Below are positions 13,319-23,018 of a DNA stretch of 64,000 bases, piece after piece. The notes beneath the pieces were generated by a model. The model had not been told where the DNA came from and ran no database searches. It worked only from the letters and a program-made list of their open reading frames with translations. Every line of letters starts with the position of its first letter. Position 1 is the first letter of the stretch. A program made the translations under genes and the position numbers. Source of the stretch: Sporichthya polymorpha DSM 43042 (lineage in GTDB: Bacteria > Actinomycetota > Actinomycetes > Sporichthyales > Sporichthyaceae); assembly GCF_000384115.1 (NCBI RefSeq), contig NZ_KB913029.1, positions 2,765,057 through 2,829,056 of the forward strand, read 5' to 3'.

Positions 13319-14905
13319 TCAGAGGCGGTTTTGTGCACCCGCCTCGGCCAGGACTTCCCCGATCAGCCCCAGCGCAACCTCCGGCAGGCCGGGCTCGGGC
13401 AGCCGGGCGCACCGCAGGTCCGGCCCGGCTCCCGGGGCGCGGGTCGGGAGTTCCCCGGTCAGCAGGTACCGCTCGGCCGCGGCCTGGGCGCAGGGGTTGC
13501 CCCAGAGGGAGGCGCCCGCGTGGTTGACGGCGTCGGTGACCTCGATCAGCGCCGAGCGGGGGAAGGCCCGCCGCGCCGCGACCGCGTCGGCCAACGGCGT
13601 CGGCCCGTCGTAGGTGGCGTTGACGAGCAGGAGCGACGGCGTGGCCGCCCCGACCGGCACCGTCTCGCCCCGGACCGGCCACAGCGAGCAGAGCACCGCG
13701 AGGTCCCAGTGCAGCGCCCACGCGATGAACGGGGCGTCGACGGCGTTGCGCACCGTGTCCGCCCGCAGGTCCGCGTACCGGCGGGGCCAGGCGCCGTCGG
13801 AGCAGGCGATGCTGAGGAAGGACGCGGTGAAGTCGTCGTCGGCCTCCCGGTCCTCGCTACCGAACGCACCCTCGACCAGCGCGGTCCGGCCCGCCACCCA
13901 GCCCGACCAGGCCTGGGCGAGCACGCCCCAGGAGTCGTCGGAGTAGACCGCCGCCCCGAACAGCTGCGTCCACTCCGCCGGGCCGATGCCGGCCCGTGGC
14001 TGCGCGCGCAGGGCGTCGAGGTCGGCGAACCAGCGCGTCCGCACCGCCGCCGCGTCCGTGCCCAGGCCGTACACGAGGTGGTGCTCGGCGACCCAGGCGA
14101 AGAACGCGTCGACGTTGCGCTGGTAGCTGCGCAACACCTCCGGTCGCGTGATGTCCCCGGCGTACCCGGCGCCGTTCGGCGGGACGACGCCGGCGAGCAG
14201 CATCCGCGTCACCCGCGTCGGGAACAGCGTCGCGTACACCTGGCCGAGGTAGGTGCCCCACGAGTTGCCGTGGTAACTCAGCGTCGATGCGCCGAGGGCC
14301 GCGCGGATGAGATCGAGATCGCGCGCGATGTCGACGGTGCGCTGGTGGCGCAGGGCCGCGCCGCCGTGCTCCGCGCAGGCGCGCACGTACGCCCGCGCCT
14401 TCTCCAGCCGCTCCCGCTCGCTGCCGGTGACCCGTTCGGCGTCGGGCGGTGAGTAGTCGAGCGCGGGCCGGGTGAAGTAGTTCGGGTCGCAGCGCAGGTC
14501 GGACCCGCTCTCCCCGACGCCGCGGGGGTCGAACCCGATGAGGTCGAAGCGGCCGGCGACGGCAGGGGTGAGCAGCGCCGCGAGCACGACCGAGCCCGAC
14601 AGGCCCGACACCCCGGGGCCGCCCGGGTTGTAGACCAGCGGCCCGAGGTGGTCCGAGCCGGTGGTGGTCGCGCGGATGCGCGAGATCGCGATCGAGGTCG
14701 TGGCGCCCCGCGGCTTCGCGTGGTCGGCCGGCACCGCCACCGTGGTGCACTCCGCGCCGCTCTCGGCCAGCGCGGCGTCGGCGCACCGGCCCCAGGTGAG
14801 CTCAGCCGGGCGGGCGGCCGCGGCCGTACCGCCGACCACCGGCTGCGCGGCGACGAGCGTGAGCGCCGCGAGGGCGCTGACCGTTCCCCGCCGCAGCTTG
14901 GTCAC
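13319..14905 (-). CDS. Secreted S33 alpha/beta-hydrolase, divergent (paralog 4)
   Basis: 528 residues. It starts at a GTG overlapping the stop of paralog 5 (GTGA), which indicates translational coupling. A signal peptide (about 1-32) is present. It is the most divergent of the six: the nucleophile elbow is G-N-S-W-G-T-Y-L-G instead of G-F-S-Y-G, the first glycine-rich motif is N-P-G-G-P-G-V-S-G, and the acid segment is Y-D-G-P-T-P. Ser, Asp and His (N-H-A-G) all appear present, so it is probably active, possibly with a shifted substrate range. Confidence 0.9.
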   Translation of the reverse strand: MTKLRRGTVSALAALTLVAAQPVVGGTAAAARPAELTWGRCADAALAESGAECTTVAVPADHAKPRGATTSIAISRIRATTTGSDHLGPLVYNPGGPGVSGLSGSVVLAALLTPAVAGRFDLIGFDPRGVGESGSDLRCDPNYFTRPALDYSPPDAERVTGSERERLEKARAYVRACAEHGGAALRHQRTVDIARDLDLIRAALGASTLSYHGNSWGTYLGQVYATLFPTRVTRMLLAGVVPPNGAGYAGDITRPEVLRSYQRNVDAFFAWVAEHHLVYGLGTDAAAVRTRWFADLDALRAQPRAGIGPAEWTQLFGAAVYSDDSWGVLAQAWSGWVAGRTALVEGAFGSEDREADDDFTASFLSIACSDGAWPRRYADLRADTVRNAVDAPFIAWALHWDLAVLCSLWPVRGETVPVGAATPSLLLVNATYDGPTPLADAVAARRAFPRSALIEVTDAVNHAGASLWGNPCAQAAAERYLLTGELPTRAPGAGPDLRCARLPEPGLPEVALGLIGEVLAEAGAQNRL

Positions 14906-16443
14906 GGGCGGGGGAGCGGGGTCCGGGCGCAACGGACGTCGGCGCCCGACCCGCTCGTCCGGCGGGGGAGCGTCCCGTCGCGCAGGTAGCGGATCACGCG
15001 CCGGTCGACGCAGTCGTTGCCGCCCAGGCTGTCCGAGTGGGTCGTGCTGCCGACCTGCGCGACGAGCGCGGAACGGGGGAACATCCGCCGCGCGTACAGC
15101 GCGCCCGAGTACGGCGTCGCACCGTCGAGCGTCGTGGAGACGATCAGCAGCGACGGGGTGCGTGAGCCGTCGATCGGAACCGGCACCCCGGGCGGGGCCT
15201 TCCAGTACAGGCAGGGCGCGTTGAACCAGACGTTGCCCCACGTCTCGAACTTCGCCTTCTTCGCGGTCGCGAACGCGTCCCTGCGCCAGCGGGCGTAACC
15301 CTCCGGCCAGGCGACGTCCGTGCACTGCACCGCGAGGTACATGCCGTAGCCGTTGTCGAAGTCGGCGAGATCCGCGCTGTAGCGGGAGCGGATCGCCGCG
15401 GTGCTCCCGCGTTCCCAGGACGCCCACGCGCCCGCGATCGCGCGCCACGTGTACTGCGAGTAGCCGGCGGTGAGGAAGACGTCGTTCCACTCGGCCGGCC
15501 CGATCGGCCCCTTCTGGCGTCGCGTCAGGGCGCGCTCCTCGCGGTAGTACCGCGTCCGGACCTGCTTCGTCGTCGACCCGAGCCGGTACGTGCGGTGGTG
15601 CTTCGCCACCCACGCCCAGAAGCGGTTCATCGCCTTCTCGAACGCGCGGTCCTGGGCGAGCTGGCCGGCGTACCAGACGTTGCGGGGGTCGACGACGCCG
15701 TCGAAGACCAGGCGCCGAGTGCGGGTCGGGAACAACGTCGCGTAGACCTGGCCGAGGTAGGTCCCGTAGGAGAAGCCGTAGTAGTTGATGCGCTGCGCGC
15801 CCAGAGCCCGCCGGAGCAGGTCGAGGTCACGGGCGACGTCCTCGGTCCGCAGGAACGGCAGCAGCTTCGGGTAGCGATCCGCGCACGCCTCGGCGTAGGC
15901 CTTCGACCGCTTCAGCCACTTGCGCTCGTTCGCACTCGGCGGCTTCGCCGGGCCGCTCGACGGCCGGTACGCCGGACGCGGTCCCTTCGCGTAGTTCGCC
16001 TTGCACCGCAGCGACGGCGAGCTCGCGCCGACCCCGCGCGGGTCGAAGCCGACGATGTCGTAGGTGCTGCGCACCGAGCGCGGCAGGTCGCGGTAGAGGG
16101 AGGCCGACCAGTGCAGTCCGCGCCCGCCCGGCCCGCCCGGGTTCACCAGCAGCGGGCCCTGCCGCTTCGACGACGGCGCAGTGGCACGGATGCGAGAGAC
16201 GGCGATCTTGATCTGCCGGCCGCCCGGGTCCGCGTGGTTCAGCGGGACGGCGAGCATCCCGCACTGCGCCCCGACCGCCCGCAGCCGGGCCTGGCCGCAC
16301 CGCTTCCAGGAGATCGACGGCGCCGCGGCCACCGCGGCGTCCGACTCCGGCGTGGGTCCCGCGTCGGCCGGGCCCGGCACCGCCAACCCGGTGGCGACCA
16401 GCGCGAGCAGCGGGACGGCGACGAACGCGGCGCGGCGGCTCAT
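14902..16443 (-). CDS. Secreted S33 alpha/beta-hydrolase (paralog 5)
   Basis: 513 residues with a signal peptide ending near G-P-A-D-A. It has an intact set of motifs: Q-C-G-M-L-A-V-P-L-N-H, N-P-G-G-P-G-G-R-G, G-F-D-P-R-G-V-G, G-F-S-Y-G-T-Y-L-G, L-D-G-A-T-P-Y and T-T-H-S. The mature part is rich in Lys and Arg. Unlike paralogs 1-4 it stops soon after the last cysteine block (R-T-P-L-P-R-P), as paralog 6 does. It is coupled to paralog 4 by a 4-base overlap and lies 48 bases behind the RarD-like gene. Confidence 0.92.
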   Translation of the reverse strand: MSRRAAFVAVPLLALVATGLAVPGPADAGPTPESDAAVAAAPSISWKRCGQARLRAVGAQCGMLAVPLNHADPGGRQIKIAVSRIRATAPSSKRQGPLLVNPGGPGGRGLHWSASLYRDLPRSVRSTYDIVGFDPRGVGASSPSLRCKANYAKGPRPAYRPSSGPAKPPSANERKWLKRSKAYAEACADRYPKLLPFLRTEDVARDLDLLRRALGAQRINYYGFSYGTYLGQVYATLFPTRTRRLVFDGVVDPRNVWYAGQLAQDRAFEKAMNRFWAWVAKHHRTYRLGSTTKQVRTRYYREERALTRRQKGPIGPAEWNDVFLTAGYSQYTWRAIAGAWASWERGSTAAIRSRYSADLADFDNGYGMYLAVQCTDVAWPEGYARWRRDAFATAKKAKFETWGNVWFNAPCLYWKAPPGVPVPIDGSRTPSLLIVSTTLDGATPYSGALYARRMFPRSALVAQVGSTTHSDSLGGNDCVDRRVIRYLRDGTLPRRTSGSGADVRCARTPLPRP

Positions 16444-17512: not shown

Positions 17513-18301
17513 TCAGTCTGCGGTCGGCAGATCCTCCGGGGTGACCTCCGCCTCCGTGGCGGGCACGGAGTCCTCCGCCGGGGCCGCCACCGGGGGTTCC
17601 GGCTCCACGACCGGCGCCGGCGGAGCCTCAGGGGAGGGCTCCGGCGTCGGGGTCGGGGTCGGGGTCGGGGTGGGCGTCGGCTCCGGCGTCGGGGTCGGCG
17701 TCGGCTCCGGGGTGGGGGTCGGCTCCGGGGTGGGGGTCGGCTCCGGGGTGGGGGTCGGCTCCGGGGTGGGGGTCGGGGTGGGAGAAGGGGTGGGTGCCGC
17801 CATCCGCGGCGCGACCGGGGCCGGCGTGGAGGTGAACATCGAGCAGTTCACCGACGTGGGGGCGAGGACGTTCTGCGAGTTCTGGAAGTCGCAGATGCCG
17901 TCGGAGGACTTCCAGAACGTCCCGGCCGTCGCGAAGACGCGGTAGTGCTGGTTGCCGTTGTTCTCGCTGTCGGTGGAGGTGCAGGTCTGGTCGACGGGCA
18001 CGTTCGTGCAACCGGCGAGCGGGGCGTACCCGCCGCTGTTGCCCTGGCGGGAAACGCTGAACGTCGTCGGCAGCTGGCCCGGCGTCGGCACGACCCGGAA
18101 GTGCACCTTGATCGTGTTGCCCTGGCCGGTGCGGTCGACCTGGATGACCGGCGCGGCGAGCGTGCCCGCGCCGGCGCCACCCGTGGACTCCGGGTGGGAC
18201 GTCAGGGTCCAGTACGCGAACGCCGGCGCGACGGTGCCGAGGAGAACGGTCGCGGCGACGCCCGCGACGGTGCCTCCGACGGTGAGAGAGCGGCGGTTCA
18301 C
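17513..18301 (-). CDS. Exported A-Y-W signal protein with Pro-Thr-Glu repeat tail
   Basis: 262 residues from a GTG overlapping the preceding stop (GTGA). The signal peptide runs to A-P-A-F-A and is followed at once by Y-W-T-L-T-S, the same A-Y-W junction as two siblings upstream. Residues about 35-165 form a Cys-containing domain (C-T-N-V-P, Q-T-C-T-S, G-I-C-D-F, N-C-S-M-F). The tail from about 170 is a long run of P-T-P-T-P-E units then an acidic Pro-rich end, as in wall-spanning spacers. No LPXTG or final membrane anchor is present. The function is not recognised; the signal resembles the SipW-cognate class used by TasA-like fibre proteins. Confidence 0.65.
   Translation of the reverse strand: MNRRSLTVGGTVAGVAATVLLGTVAPAFAYWTLTSHPESTGGAGAGTLAAPVIQVDRTGQGNTIKVHFRVVPTPGQLPTTFSVSRQGNSGGYAPLAGCTNVPVDQTCTSTDSENNGNQHYRVFATAGTFWKSSDGICDFQNSQNVLAPTSVNCSMFTSTPAPVAPRMAAPTPSPTPTPTPEPTPTPEPTPTPEPTPTPEPTPTPTPEPTPTPTPTPTPTPEPSPEAPPAPVVEPEPPVAAPAEDSVPATEAEVTPEDLPTAD
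17705..17776. repeat. Four perfect 18-bp tandem repeats encoding P-T-P-T-P-E
   Basis: The unit CTCCGGGGTGGGGGTCGG is repeated exactly four times, with degenerate copies on both sides. On the minus strand each unit encodes six residues of the Pro-Thr-Glu spacer of the gene at 17513-18301. Identity at the base level suggests recent expansion by slippage, so copy number may vary among strains. Confidence 0.9.
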
Positions 18302-18789
18302 GGCGCCTCCTGCGTGGTCAGCACGACGGGGATCGTGAAGGTGGCGCCCTGGCAGTTCGCCGGGGTGTCCATCAACAGGCGGACCCGGTTCGGCAGTGTC
18401 GTCACCGGGGACGGACCCGGCGCCGTCACGGAGATGTTGAGTCCGGTGATGGCCGGCATCTCGAGGAAGACCGCGCAGCCGGCGACGCTGCTGACCACCG
18501 GGCGGGCGGGGTCCTTCGCGATGCCGGTGACGATCGCATTCACCGGGGTGGTGAACGTCAGCGCCAGGCTGCCGTTGGGCGTCGTGCTCGGGAAGAGCAG
18601 ACCCGTCGCCGGCGTGACCGCGGTCGAGCGGATGGTCTGGCCGACGCCGACCTTCGCCGTCCCGCTGCCGGAGCCGGTGGTCTTCCAGTACGCGAAGGCG
18701 GAGCCGCCCGAGAGCAGGGCGATGACGGTGACGGCGGCGACGGCGGCGACGACCGCGGTGCGGCCCGCGCCGATGCGAATGCGCGTCAT
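18298..18789 (-). CDS. Small exported protein with A-Y-W signal junction
   Basis: 163 residues. It has a signal peptide with a long hydrophobic core ending G-G-S-A-F-A, immediately followed by Y-W-K-T-T-G-S-G-S-G-T-A-K-V-G. The remainder is predicted beta-rich with two cysteines (A-G-C-A-V-F and A-N-C-Q-G) that could form a disulfide. The A-Y-W-x-T-x-G-S-G pattern matches the protein at 19572, so they are siblings. Its ATG overlaps the stop of the LPGTG gene (ATGA) and its stop overlaps the start of the Pro-Thr-Glu gene, so the three are tightly coupled. No known function. Confidence 0.7.
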   Translation of the reverse strand: MTRIRIGAGRTAVVAAVAAVTVIALLSGGSAFAYWKTTGSGSGTAKVGVGQTIRSTAVTPATGLLFPSTTPNGSLALTFTTPVNAIVTGIAKDPARPVVSSVAGCAVFLEMPAITGLNISVTAPGPSPVTTLPNRVRLLMDTPANCQGATFTIPVVLTTQEAP

Positions 18790-19484
18790 CGCACGGCCCC
18801 CGTGGTGCGGCGGGTCAGCACGACCGAGCCACCGCCGAGGACGACGAGGCCGAGGCCGGCGAGCGCGGTCCAGAACGTCATGGGGTTCCCACCGGTGCCC
18901 GGGAGGGTGACACCGCCGACGGTGTTGTCGTCGTCCGGCTCCTCCGTGGGCGTCTCGACCGGCGTCTCCACCGGCGGGGCGGGCGTCGGGTCCGGCGGGA
19001 CGGAGACTCCACCGACCTCGGCGGCCCGGCCGGCGAACGCGAGGTTCACCGTCGAGTTCTTGCAGCCGTCCTGGTTGACGGCGGTGTTGGTCATCCAGAC
19101 GCGCGGCAGATCGGCCGGCGCAACCCCGAGCTGGGTCAGCGTGCGCGTCGCCCCGGCGGGGAGCGTGAACTCCCGCGTGGCGTCGAGCTGCTCGACGACG
19201 AAGTCGGAGGTCAGGCACGGCGCCGCGGTCCGCGTGGTGACGCCGACGACGGACACGGTGATCTCACCCACCGTCAGTTCCGTCGACCCGATGTTGGTCA
19301 GGCTCAGGTCCAGCGCACCGGACCCGCCCGGGTAAAGCGTGCTGTCGAGCGTGCCGCTGATCGTGAACGCGTCGCCCGGCGCGGCGTTCGCCGCCCCGGC
19401 TCCGCCGAGGACGACGGCCCCCGCCCCCAGGACGAGTGCCGCCGTGCGCAACGCTTGCGCGCCGCGCGTACTGCTGGCCTTCAA
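18786..19484 (-). CDS. LPGTG-anchored surface protein
   Basis: 232 residues. The TTG at 19484 is chosen because a strong GGGGGGA-type ribosome site lies about five bases upstream; an ATG further up would place that site inside the gene. There is a signal peptide ending A-N-A-A, a beta-rich domain (about 35-160) containing N-Q-D-G-C-K-N-S, a motif shared with the protein at 19572, and a Pro/Thr/Glu spacer. A sorting signal L-P-G-T-G-G, a hydrophobic helix and R-R-T-T follow, so sortase anchoring to peptidoglycan is expected. No sortase gene is in the window. Confidence 0.8.
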   Translation of the reverse strand: MKASSTRGAQALRTAALVLGAGAVVLGGAGAANAAPGDAFTISGTLDSTLYPGGSGALDLSLTNIGSTELTVGEITVSVVGVTTRTAAPCLTSDFVVEQLDATREFTLPAGATRTLTQLGVAPADLPRVWMTNTAVNQDGCKNSTVNLAFAGRAAEVGGVSVPPDPTPAPPVETPVETPTEEPDDDNTVGGVTLPGTGGNPMTFWTALAGLGLVVLGGGSVVLTRRTTGAVR

Positions 19485-19526
19485 CGTGGTCCCCCCACCG
19501 CAGAACATCTGACTTCCCGGAACTGG

Positions 19527-19565
19527 CGGTGGTGGCGGGTCCCACCCCAGGACCCGCCACCACCG
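19527..19565 (-). terminator. Strong hairpin after the first A-Y-W gene (attenuator or stability element)
   Basis: A perfect 16-bp stem, CGGTGGTGGCGGGTCC at 19527-19542 against 19550-19565, closes a 7-base loop. It starts seven bases after the stop of the gene at 19572 and lies 43 bases before the TTG of the next gene. There is no T-run, so it may attenuate read-through or protect the upstream mRNA, making the first protein more abundant than the three downstream. This role is inferred. Confidence 0.6.
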
Positions 19566-19571
19566 GCGTGA

Positions 19572-20015
19572 TCAGTTCGAGGTGAACGTCAGCTCGATCG
19601 CGCTGTTCTTGCAGGCGTCCTGGTTCGTCGCGGCCTCGTTGCGCAGCTTGAGGGAGGCGCCGGAGAAGGTCACCGAGGCGCCACCGGCGATGTCCTGGGC
19701 GGTTACCGTCGCCGGCGTGACGTCGAACCACGCCTTGTTGCAGCCCGCGTTGGTCGGCTGGAAGTCCCACGACAGGCCGGACAGGCGCTGCGGGAACGTG
19801 GCGGGGTTGGTGACCGTGATGTCGAAGCTCTCGACCGCGTCGAGCACCAGGGCGTCCGTGATGTCGCCCGCGATGGTGAAGTTCGTCGTGGTGCCGACCG
19901 CAGCGGTGCCGTCGCCGGAGCCGCCGGTGGTCCAGTACGCGAAGGCGGTGCCCGCGCCGAGGGCGACGACGGCGGAGACAGCGACGGTGCCGGCGAGCTT
20001 CTTGGTGATGCGCAT
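19572..20015 (-). CDS. Small exported A-Y-W protein, first gene of surface operon
   Basis: 147 residues. The start is an ATG with a GGGGGGA ribosome site, and the signal peptide ends A-G-T-A-F-A, followed by Y-W-T-T-G-G-S-G-D-G-T-A-A-V-G. The mature part is about 120 residues, beta-rich, with C-N-K-A-W and N-Q-D-A-C-K-N-S; the latter recurs in the LPGTG protein, so the two share a domain. The layout (short signal, aromatic +1/+2 residues, compact beta domain) resembles camelysin/TasA-type secreted fibre subunits, but true homology cannot be shown here. It is first in a four-gene operon, followed by the hairpin at 19527, and could be the major subunit. Confidence 0.7.
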   Translation of the reverse strand: MRITKKLAGTVAVSAVVALGAGTAFAYWTTGGSGDGTAAVGTTTNFTIAGDITDALVLDAVESFDITVTNPATFPQRLSGLSWDFQPTNAGCNKAWFDVTPATVTAQDIAGGASVTFSGASLKLRNEAATNQDACKNSAIELTFTSN

Positions 20016-20388: not shown

Positions 20389-21936
20389 TCAGGGCTCGGG
20401 GTGCGGTGAACGGCTGCAGGTGACATCGGCGCCGTTGCCCGATTTGCGCGCCGGGAGCTTGCCGTCGCGCAGGTACCGGATCACCTTGCTGTCGACGCAC
20501 CGGTTGCCGTTCAGCGTGTTCGCGTGGGTGCTGTTGCCGACCTCCGCGACGAGCACCGCGCGGCGGAACAGGCGCCGCGCCTCGAGTGCCCCGGCGTACG
20601 GCGTCGCGCCGTCGAGGGTGGTGTTGATCAACAGGACCTTGGGCGCGCGGTTGCCGTTGACCGTCACCGGCCTGCCCGAGGCGGCCGGCCAGTACAGGCA
20701 GGGCGTGTTGAACCAGACGTTGTTCCAGGTCAGGAATCGCGCGGAGCGTGCGGTGGCGAACGCGTCCTCGCGCCAGGTGGCGTAGTCCTTCGGCCACGGC
20801 GCGTCGATGCACTGGACCGCGAGGTACATCGCGTAGCTGTTGTCCCCGCCGGACGCGGACTCGCGGTAGAGCACCTTCATCAGCGCGTCGTTGCCTCCGA
20901 CGTAGGAGGAGAAGGCGGACGCCACGTCCGGCCAGCCGCCCTGGTAGTACGCGGCGCCGACGAAGACGTCGTTGAACTCCGCCGGCCCGAGCTCGCCGTC
21001 CGGGTTGGCCGCCAACTTCGCCTGCTCGGAGTAGAAGCGGTCCTCGACCGCCTTCGCGGTCTCGCCGAGGCGGTAGGTCTTGTGATGCCGGGCGACCCAC
21101 TTCCAGAACTCGGCGATCGCACCCTCGAACGCCCTGTCCTGGTTGAGCTGCCCGCGGTACCAGACCTCGGCGGGGTCGACGACGCCGTCCCACACCATGC
21201 GCCGGACCTTCTTCGGGTACAGCGTCGCGTAGACCTGGCCGAGGTAGGTGCCGTACGAGAAGCCGTAGTAGTTGATCTTCTGAACCTTCAGCGCCCGGCG
21301 CAGGGTCTCGATGTCCCGGACCGTGTTCAGGGTCGACAGGTGCGGCAGGACGCCGCCGTGCTTGGCGGCGCACGCCTCCGCGTAGCGCTTCGACCGCTCC
21401 AGCCAGGCCGTCTCGTTCGGGCTCTGGAGGGGCAGCTGCCCCAGCATCGGCTCGTACGCCGGCCGCGGTCCGCGGGCGTAGCTCGGCTGGCACGAGACCG
21501 CCGGCTTGCTGCGCCCGACGCCGCGGGGGTCGAACCCGATGAGGTCGTAGGTGGACGCGACACCCGACGGCAGCGCCTGCGCCAGGTAGGAGCTGAGGCC
21601 GAGCCCCGAGCCGCCCGGCCCGCCCGGGTTCGCGATGAGGACGCCCTGGCGCTTCTGCTTCGGCGCGGTCGCCTTCACCCGGGAGACGGCGACCTGGATC
21701 GTCCGCCCGGTGGGCTTTGCGTAGTCCAGCGGAACGGTCAGGAAGCCGCACTGCGCCCCGCCGGCCTGCAGCGAACCGGTCGAACAGCGGCCCCACCTGA
21801 TCGGCCTCGGCTTGAACGCGGTCACCGCCGCTGCGGTCGTCCCGCCGGCAGGCTCGGGCCCACGTGCGTGCGCAGCCGGGGCCACGGGGCCGAGCGTGCT
21901 GGCGACCAGCGCGACGGCCCCGAGGCGGGCGATCAA
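20389..21936 (-). CDS. Secreted S33 alpha/beta-hydrolase (paralog 6)
   Basis: 515 residues from a TTG at 21936, which gives a clean signal peptide (I-A-R-L-G-A-V-A-L-V-A, cleavage after A-A-H-A). No better start exists between it and the korB stop 11 bases upstream, and no convincing ribosome site is visible, so the start is tentative. All family motifs are intact: Q-C-G-F-L-T-V-P-L-D-Y, N-P-G-G-P-G-G-S-G, G-F-D-P-R-G-V-G, G-F-S-Y-G-T-Y-L-G, L-D-G-A-T-P-Y and S-T-H-A. Its sequence and short C-terminus are closest to paralog 5. It may be co-transcribed with korAB. Confidence 0.88.
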   Translation of the reverse strand: MIARLGAVALVASTLGPVAPAAHARGPEPAGGTTAAAVTAFKPRPIRWGRCSTGSLQAGGAQCGFLTVPLDYAKPTGRTIQVAVSRVKATAPKQKRQGVLIANPGGPGGSGLGLSSYLAQALPSGVASTYDLIGFDPRGVGRSKPAVSCQPSYARGPRPAYEPMLGQLPLQSPNETAWLERSKRYAEACAAKHGGVLPHLSTLNTVRDIETLRRALKVQKINYYGFSYGTYLGQVYATLYPKKVRRMVWDGVVDPAEVWYRGQLNQDRAFEGAIAEFWKWVARHHKTYRLGETAKAVEDRFYSEQAKLAANPDGELGPAEFNDVFVGAAYYQGGWPDVASAFSSYVGGNDALMKVLYRESASGGDNSYAMYLAVQCIDAPWPKDYATWREDAFATARSARFLTWNNVWFNTPCLYWPAASGRPVTVNGNRAPKVLLINTTLDGATPYAGALEARRLFRRAVLVAEVGNSTHANTLNGNRCVDSKVIRYLRDGKLPARKSGNGADVTCSRSPHPEP

Positions 21937-21947
21937 GCCGGTGGCAG

Positions 21948-23018
21948 CTATGCGACGGTCCAGGTGTCGGTGCCGCGGAGCAGACGTTGCAGGTCGCCGG
22001 CCTTGACCGAGTTCTGGCGGAGCTGGGCGGCCATCTGCGCGTCGTAGGTCGGACGCTCGACGTCCCGGAAGACACCGATCGGCGTCTTGTCGAGGGTCAG
22101 GTCGGGCAGCCGCGAGAGCGCGAAGGCGACGCCCGGGTCCTCGGCGTTCGCGTTGTGGACCAGGATCTGCGACTCGTTCTCCGGCGTCACGTCGACGACC
22201 TGGATCGTCCCGTCCGACATGCGCATGACGCCGCGCTCGCCCTCGGTGCCGAAGCGGATCGGCTGGCCGTGCTGGAGCCGGATGAGGTGCGTCTTGGCGC
22301 CCTCCGGGTCCTTGAGGATGTCCCACGCACCGTCGTTGAAGATGTTGCAGTTCTGGTAGATCTCGATCAGCGCGGTGCCGGAGTGCTCGGCCGCGGCGCG
22401 CAGCACCTCCTGCAGGTGCTTGCGGTCCGAGTCGATGGTCCGGGCGACGAAGGTCGCCTCGGCGCCGAGGGCCAGCGACACCGGGTTGAACGGCGCGTCC
22501 AGCGAGCCGAGCGGCGTCGACTTGGTGACCTTGCCGACCTCGGAGGTCGGCGAGTACTGACCCTTCGTCAGACCGTAGATCCGGTTGTTGAACAGCAGGA
22601 TCTTCAGGTTGATGTTGCGGCGCAGCGCGTGGATCAGGTGGTTGCCACCGATGGAGAGCGCGTCACCGTCACCGGTGACGACCCACACCGACAGGTCCTG
22701 GCGCGAGGCAGCCAGACCGGTCGCGATCGCCGGCGCGCGGCCGTGGATCGAGTGCATCCCGTAGGTGTCCATGTAGTACGGGAAGCGGGAGGAGCACCCG
22801 ATGCCCGACACCCAGACGATGTTCTCCTTGCGGAGCCCGAGGTCCGGCATGAAGGACTGCACCGCAGCGAGGATCGCGTAGTCGCCGCAACCGGGGCACC
22901 AGCGCACCTCCTGGTCGGACTTGAAGTCCTTGGTGCTCTGGCTGACCTCGGTCTTCGGGACCAGCGACAGGCTCTTGTAGGCGAGCCCGGGGGGCGGAGT
23001 GTCGTCGCGGGGCGGCAT
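21948..23018 (-). CDS. korB: 2-oxoacid:ferredoxin oxidoreductase beta subunit
   Basis: 356 residues. This is the thiamine-diphosphate-binding subunit that, with KorA, oxidatively decarboxylates a 2-oxoacid (2-oxoglutarate in the mycobacterial homologue) to acyl-CoA while reducing ferredoxin. Seen in the sequence are W-C-P-G-C-G-D-Y-A-I-L near the N-terminus, V-S-G-I-G-C-S-S-R-F-P, the ThDP motif G-D-G-D-A-L-S-I-G-G-N-H, and Y-G-L-T-K-G-Q-Y-S-P-T-S. The ATG is one base after the korA stop, so the two are coupled. Its presence suggests an alternative, CoA-dependent ferredoxin-linked TCA step. Confidence 0.93.
   Translation of the reverse strand: MPPRDDTPPPGLAYKSLSLVPKTEVSQSTKDFKSDQEVRWCPGCGDYAILAAVQSFMPDLGLRKENIVWVSGIGCSSRFPYYMDTYGMHSIHGRAPAIATGLAASRQDLSVWVVTGDGDALSIGGNHLIHALRRNINLKILLFNNRIYGLTKGQYSPTSEVGKVTKSTPLGSLDAPFNPVSLALGAEATFVARTIDSDRKHLQEVLRAAAEHSGTALIEIYQNCNIFNDGAWDILKDPEGAKTHLIRLQHGQPIRFGTEGERGVMRMSDGTIQVVDVTPENESQILVHNANAEDPGVAFALSRLPDLTLDKTPIGVFRDVERPTYDAQMAAQLRQNSVKAGDLQRLLRGTDTWTVA

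Follow-up and report, generated by a model that had tools for sequence, protein, structure and literature searches.

A recurrent four-gene cassette of Sporichthya polymorpha as a candidate locus for a TasA-like surface fibre

In the chaperone-usher pili of Gram-negative bacteria, the shaft subunits have a strand plus a groove, and special subunits form the ends. Actinobacterial proteins of the SipW-exported kind, represented by the models TIGR04089 and TIGR04088, have a signal peptide followed by a mature protein starting with AYWT. According to the available portions of two reports, one TasA subunit uses its N-terminal strand to complete the sheet of the following subunit (PMC9674648), and TapA, which has a different fold, donates a similar N-terminus (PMC10151520). 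The available portion of a third report, on TasA-CalY-CapP of Bacillus cereus, describes two related filament subunits, an accessory protein and sortase-independent assembly, and mentions no wall-anchored subunit (PMC13082335). Here, a cassette of four genes, A-B-C-D, is described from Sporichthya polymorpha DSM 43042, where it lies in a window of 64,000 nucleotides (nt) of contig NZ_KB913029.1 (positions 2,765,057 to 2,829,056 of the forward strand, assembly GCF_000384115.1). It is proposed, with about as much reason for belief as for doubt, that the cassette codes for a fibre on the cell surface whose subunits, like those of TasA, are joined by strand donation.

As in the TasA/TapA/SipW system of Bacillus subtilis, the cassette has a predicted secreted beta-sandwich subunit, a candidate N-terminal strand directly after an aromatic cleavage junction, an LxPGD...N motif, and a second protein with a different Ig-type fold and a related N-terminus (TapA there, the FN3-bearing D here). 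It differs in the size of the domain, which is about 105 residues with a conserved Cys pair (234 residues in the TasA chain 8aur), in an ordinary AFA cleavage site for which SipW appears not to be required, in a dedicated tethered protein B, and in the multi-domain D of relatives. With TasA-CalY-CapP it shares the two related candidate filament subunits with an accessory protein and an assembly that would not depend on a sortase, the gene order and the accessory protein being different. The TIGR04089/TIGR04088 proteins share the signal peptide and the AYWT start, with nothing aligning beyond about the first 12 mature residues. The proposed logic of strand-plus-groove shaft and special end subunits is that of the chaperone-usher pili; however, no chaperone or usher is seen among genes A-D.

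The homology among the proteins, their module anatomy and the expression layout of the cassette are direct observations. A first-pass annotation of the window had described four exported proteins as a candidate surface structure, and the four genes were found on the minus strand where it had placed them, with the features it had listed. Gene A (19572..20015), the candidate major fibre subunit, encodes 147 amino acids with a signal peptide (residues 1-26), an aromatic, Gly-rich mature N-terminus (27-41) and a beta-sandwich domain (42-147) containing Cys92 and NQDxC135. Gene B (18786..19484), the candidate base subunit, has an A-type domain without the donor-strand segment and a wall-anchoring signal; its reading frame is open to 19508, and its start is probably TTG at 19484, preceded by a GGGGGGA ribosome site recognized by eye. 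Gene C (18298..18789; 163 amino acids), the candidate minor subunit, has the donor-strand segment and a divergent A-type domain, and gene D (17513..18301; 262 amino acids), the candidate tip, has an AFA/YW junction, a looser segment, an FN3 domain and a P/T/E-rich tail. The AFA/YW junction claimed for three of the four proteins is present in A, C and D, the signal end of B looking ordinary. Equally, the LPGTG motif was read directly on B (18891..18905, minus strand), followed by a hydrophobic stretch and RR, and the supposed wall spacer is a PTPEPT-type array on D, visible as a DNA tandem repeat (17637..17794, minus strand). The NQDxCKNS domain said to be common to two proteins holds for A (NQDACKNS) and B (NQDGCKNS); its extension to C had been missed. 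None of the four proteins reaches a Pfam or NCBIfam cut-off. A search with the A protein found a second cassette, A'B'C'D', in the same genome (C1:4083389-4086710).

Profile comparisons indicate that A, B and C carry one homologous secreted domain, predicted to be a beta-sandwich and remotely related to camelysin/TasA. The A-family domain profile, built from A alone, matches B at 4e-19 without the N-terminal segment and does not detect the window C. The link of C to B and A comes from a C-family profile from which the window C was excluded, which matches C at 3e-12 (44.1 bits, vs 9.1 bits for the best of 300 shuffles of C), B at 7e-9 and A at 0.003, and from the hhalign comparison of the A and C domain families (E 3.7e-15). 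The AlphaFold model of A is an Ig-like sandwich with a predicted local distance difference test score (pLDDT) of 78.7, and its best PDB structure alignments (Z 7.0) are inside the range of common arrangements. Sequence searches of the PDB with A, the A1 profile and one A relative gave no credible match, and with the TIGR04089 profile no match; in PHROGs nothing matches at E <= 0.1. Further domain-only proteins in three loci (L100, L101 and L093) were left out of the role assignment.

The comparison with TasA/camelysin made in the first-pass annotation gained support from hhalign, where the A family matches actinobacterial camelysins with 94% probability (E 9.8e-8) in an alignment that takes in the signal junction, the LxPGD...N motif and what is presumed to be the donor strand. 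The camelysin alignment was made of 11 of 17 camelysin proteins (L151 and L152 being below the cut-off; six loci omitted) and two hand-chosen SipW-locus proteins (L044:6182-6781 and L033:3020-3640). Because the match lies partly in the signal peptide, the comparison was repeated without the signal region, with column shuffles and an FN3 set as controls. The A domain alone scores 18.6 against the camelysin domains (maximum of 200 column shuffles, 14.6) and the C domain alone scores 24.5 over 95 columns (maximum, 18.1), the FN3 control having a score of 9.8. A1 and a single TasA sequence match weakly (P 0.036), at rank 2-5 when placed among 2000 shuffles. The camelysin profile PF12389, which was among the proposed checks, gave a mixed result, matching 5 of the 18 A members (best 1.2e-4), all below the cut-off, the best having 22.4 bits vs a curated cut-off of 22.5 bits; it has no match to the window A and 0 matches at E <= 1e-3 in the own genome. 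A detailed rescan covered 10 of the 18 A proteins, and the four that matched, A' (7.1e-4) included, align in one common register that starts at the signal peptide and ends at residue 64-97, again below the cut-off. Over-cut-off camelysins are present in 14/118 genomes of the class, many adjoining SipW-type peptidases. Membership in the curated camelysin family was rejected on these scores, and the relation is read here as probable remote homology, not membership.

A and C have a conserved mature N-terminus, consisting of an aromatic pair and then alternating Gly, at the place where TasA/TapA carry the donor strand. In A, this candidate strand is residues 27-41, YWTTGGSGDGTAAVG (19893..19937, minus strand), common to C and looser in D. 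The segment profile built from A only matches C at 7e-10. A model of 17 N-termini has six matches at E <= 0.01 in this genome, namely A, C and D from the window cassette and A', C' and D' from the second, the model rows including A, A', C and D, and neither C' (2e-7) nor D' (0.009); the next five matches start at E 0.015, three of them covering only model positions up to 28. In A, the mean conservation of the segment is 2.35 vs 1.75 bits per residue for the domain, the most conserved 15-residue stretch of which has 2.56. D appears to have the aromatic junction with a looser form of the segment, as an aromatic residue was seen by eye at mature position 1 or 2 in 27/28 D proteins (not found in L099), and B apparently lacks the segment, which is absent from all 27 assigned B proteins.

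The same N-terminus could be only an element of export or signal-peptidase recognition in a non-polymerising set of adhesins, with A, C and D as secreted monomers and B as their anchored receptor. This is considered unlikely. Between the N-terminal module and the TIGR04089 proteins, only the signal and some 12 residues at the mature start align (E 9.4e-7), as would be expected of an export element, and the Gly/Ser/Thr-rich segment, its looseness in D and the adhesin-like domains of D relatives would suit such a set. However, no other place in the own genome has the module at E <= 0.01, the domain is related to a polymerising family, and A is marked for higher expression.

The B-type proteins have an LPXTG signal or, rare exceptions aside, a strongly hydrophobic N-terminal segment, and are thus predicted to be tethered in either case. 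LPXTG is present in four of the 27 assigned B proteins, and the N-terminal segments of these four are the least hydrophobic (peak mean hydropathy 1.49-1.78); the other 23 have values of 1.91-2.85, like membrane segments, with a lipobox-like motif in two. The window B has the pattern of sortase-anchored proteins (LPXTG, hydrophobic stretch and basic tail), and the NCBIfam sorting-signal models match below the cut-off only. The LPGTG of B, together with sortase matches at seven places of the genome, could suggest a sortase-polymerised pilus of the SpaA kind; this is hardly to be expected, and was rejected because only B carries LPXTG: the window A, C and D have no sorting signal, few of the assigned B proteins have the motif, and no sortase is adjacent.

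The D-type proteins are predicted to have an FN3 domain and no A domain, often together with Ig-like or lectin domains. FN3 without a match to the A or C domain was found in 28/28 assigned D proteins, 15 of which were used to train the FN3 model. For the window D, the predicted structure has a mean pLDDT of 65, being best in residues 60-140, and Foldseek places FN3 domains at the top (E 7.1e-4, prob 1.00), some C2 domains also occurring within the top 50; Pfam fn3 matches two homologues, below the cut-off only. In the Pfam scan, 7/13 D relatives carry Big_13, He_PIG, Laminin_G_3 or similar domains over the cut-off, and no over-cut-off adhesin-like domain was found in the window D, its L046 orthologue or D'. 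On a plasmid of Arthrobacter sp. StoSoilB13 (L102:6368-7730), the D N-terminus and the FN3/Ig part are in different frames, indicating a broken gene or a sequencing error.

The absence of an adjacent sortase or SipW-type peptidase, remarked on from the start, was borne out: the nearest of the seven sortase matches is about 565 kb away and the one SipW-type peptidase over the cut-off in the own genome (C1:850852) is 1.93 Mb away. Processing of the cassette in trans by this peptidase is quite improbable. Besides its existence, the arrangement in a Nocardioides metagenome-assembled genome (MAG) speaks for it, as A and C follow two SipW-type peptidases and TIGR04089/TIGR04088 proteins there (L033, the only one of the BLAST-compared loci with such a peptidase adjacent), and so does the over-cut-off presence of TIGR02228 in 15/27 A-positive vs 95/366 other genomes (Fisher p 0.003, kinship uncorrected, with E-values read by hand). 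Given this excess in A-positive genomes, SipW may have a historical or optional link with the cassette. Against dependence on SipW, two draft genomes of the same family, estimated to be 100% complete (G003 and G004), carry cassettes and have no TIGR02228 match at E <= 1e-3, so that SipW is probably not essential; the suggested SipW-signal model TIGR04088 (cut-off 19 bits) hits no window protein and 1/18 A members (E 0.079); and the SipW locus of the own genome has two exported proteins of its own. The early-collected loci were also compared by BLAST with three SipW-type peptidases and seven sortase-locus open reading frames (ORFs) taken from the own genome, some of the latter possibly being wrong frames. 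Relatives turned up only at L033 and L044, apart from one weak match to a signal-peptidase-like ORF at L035 (34.8%, E 2.8e-5), and no sortase was detected. The separate SipW locus (L044:6182-7817; C1:849681-851316) encodes two exported proteins with WAAW/WGAW junctions and then the peptidase, one of the two being camelysin-like (LLPGD...TNTGS and NQNSTLTL). Three consecutive signal-peptidase-like matches below the TIGR02228 cut-off (G000:C1:3785747-3787953) are probably ordinary signal peptidase I copies.

The 18-protein A profile has matches in 27/393 genomes of the class and 19/296 genomes of the phylum, the own genome included in both, five of the 19 being weak and N-terminal only. Carriers with a name include Nocardioides, Nocardioidaceae, Frankiaceae, Acidimicrobiaceae, Solirubrobacterales and Actinomycetota MAGs and a Paenarthrobacter, in addition to the Arthrobacter sp. 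StoSoilB13 megaplasmid. Thirteen loci have the order A-B-C-D (D of L054 is truncated by the contig end) and two have A-C-D-B (L048 and L052), close-relative pairs being counted separately (L046/window, L016/L047, L084/L085 and L034/L036). One of the latter two, L048 (G002:C7), is a third, differently ordered cassette with LPXTG on B, from a second species of the genus. Eleven held-out loci were fetched after the profiles were built, from 11/16 new genomes, the other five having only weak N-terminal matches (E >= 1.3e-4); L126 was omitted as a duplicate of L034. Among them, the B-type proteins lack the segment (8/8), the D-type proteins have FN3, an aromatic junction and no A domain (11/11), and a stem of at least 12 base pairs (bp) is present downstream of 6/7 A genes. 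The B of L133 has LPFTG together with a hydrophobic N-terminus, that of L131 has no clear hydrophobic N-terminus, perhaps from a wrong start, and no B was seen in L127, L129 and L135.

In the window, a stem-loop of 17 bp with a 5-nt loop follows the A stop in the A-B gap (19527..19565, minus strand; z -2.1 over the whole 87-nt gap and -3.1 over the first 70 nt), and is a candidate transcript stabiliser or partial terminator favouring A. A stem of at least 12 bp is present after 19 of 30 A genes, listed by hand with the A-like genes of L085, L098 and L099 outside, vs 20/200 other genes of the loci (Fisher 5e-10) and 3/23 genes with a near downstream gene (Fisher 3e-4), relatives not being independent in either comparison. 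B and C, as well as C and D, overlap by 4 nt, and in the thirteen four-gene cassettes the nearest possible start is at -4 to +7 nt for B-C (13/13) and at -4 to +1 nt for C-D (11/13). The stem-loop after A and the overlapping or abutting frames of B, C and D fit an excess of A over coupled B, C and D.

As A, B and C have the groove-type domain, and A, C and (loosely) D the strand-like segment, B would be left with a groove alone, on a tethered protein, and D with a strand alone, on a protein resembling an adhesin; a fibre with two distinct ends would need just such a pair. The layout of major subunit, anchor and accessory proteins suggested from the first is supported by the stem-loop after A, by the tethered B and by the D proteins, some of which have adhesin-like domains. 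In the fibre proposed here, A would be made in excess and would polymerise, each copy placing its N-terminal strand in the groove of the subunit before it; assembly would start on anchored B (groove only), extend with A and C (strand plus groove) and end with D (strand only), presenting binding domains. Ordinary signal peptidase I would suffice for export and sortase would fix B to the wall. A surface location of the A-D proteins and their polymerisation by strand donation would follow from this scheme. Its more specific form is put forward only tentatively, the chances being somewhat against it: a widespread actinobacterial donor-strand pilus with its polarity written in the gene set, having B as a wall- or membrane-tethered base, A and C as the shaft and D as the tip adhesin, with no need for a chaperone-usher pair, a dedicated SipW or a polymerising sortase.

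Several observations weigh against the proposed fibre. In the strand-only reading of D, the weakest point is its loose segment, as only 6/28 loci, the window not among them, have a D that the A-only profile matches at E <= 1e-3, and only 1/11 held-out loci do. The assignment of proteins to roles B and D drew in part on the pattern itself, the held-out loci and the anchoring being the more independent tests. The candidate strand is rich in Gly/Ser/Thr, without the spaced hydrophobics of TasA (F29, I32 and F39), and has low AlphaFold confidence in A; the C of L091 does not match the A-only segment profile. The hhalign probabilities are low once the signal region is removed (25% with P 7.6e-4 for mature A, 2.8% for the A domain and 16% for the C domain). 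Foldseek with A found no PDB match at E < 0.001, and TasA is outside the 50 best matches of each structure search, which excludes nothing. In other loci C is missing, or A has one partner or is alone; the stem-loop is missing after 11/30 A genes; and in two loci (L091:9506-10000 and L096:7366-7830) a further protein that has the domain but no N-terminal segment is encoded upstream of A.

Among the matches listed, literature titles and abstract beginnings held no account of such a fibre. If true, the proposal would mean an undescribed class of surface fibres in the Actinomycetota, TasA/camelysin-type assembly outside SipW systems, and an example of how a Gram-positive envelope can tether and cap a donor-strand fibre. 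The model makes predictions for individual genes, as the loss of B would shed fibres and the loss of D would leave non-adhesive fibres. Outside the cassette, none of the hydrolases that neighbour it in the window was seen adjoining the A' cassette; in the window, these are paralogous secreted hydrolases that flank the cassette on both sides (13319-16443 and 20389-22326) and by eye resemble S33 tripeptidyl-aminopeptidases.

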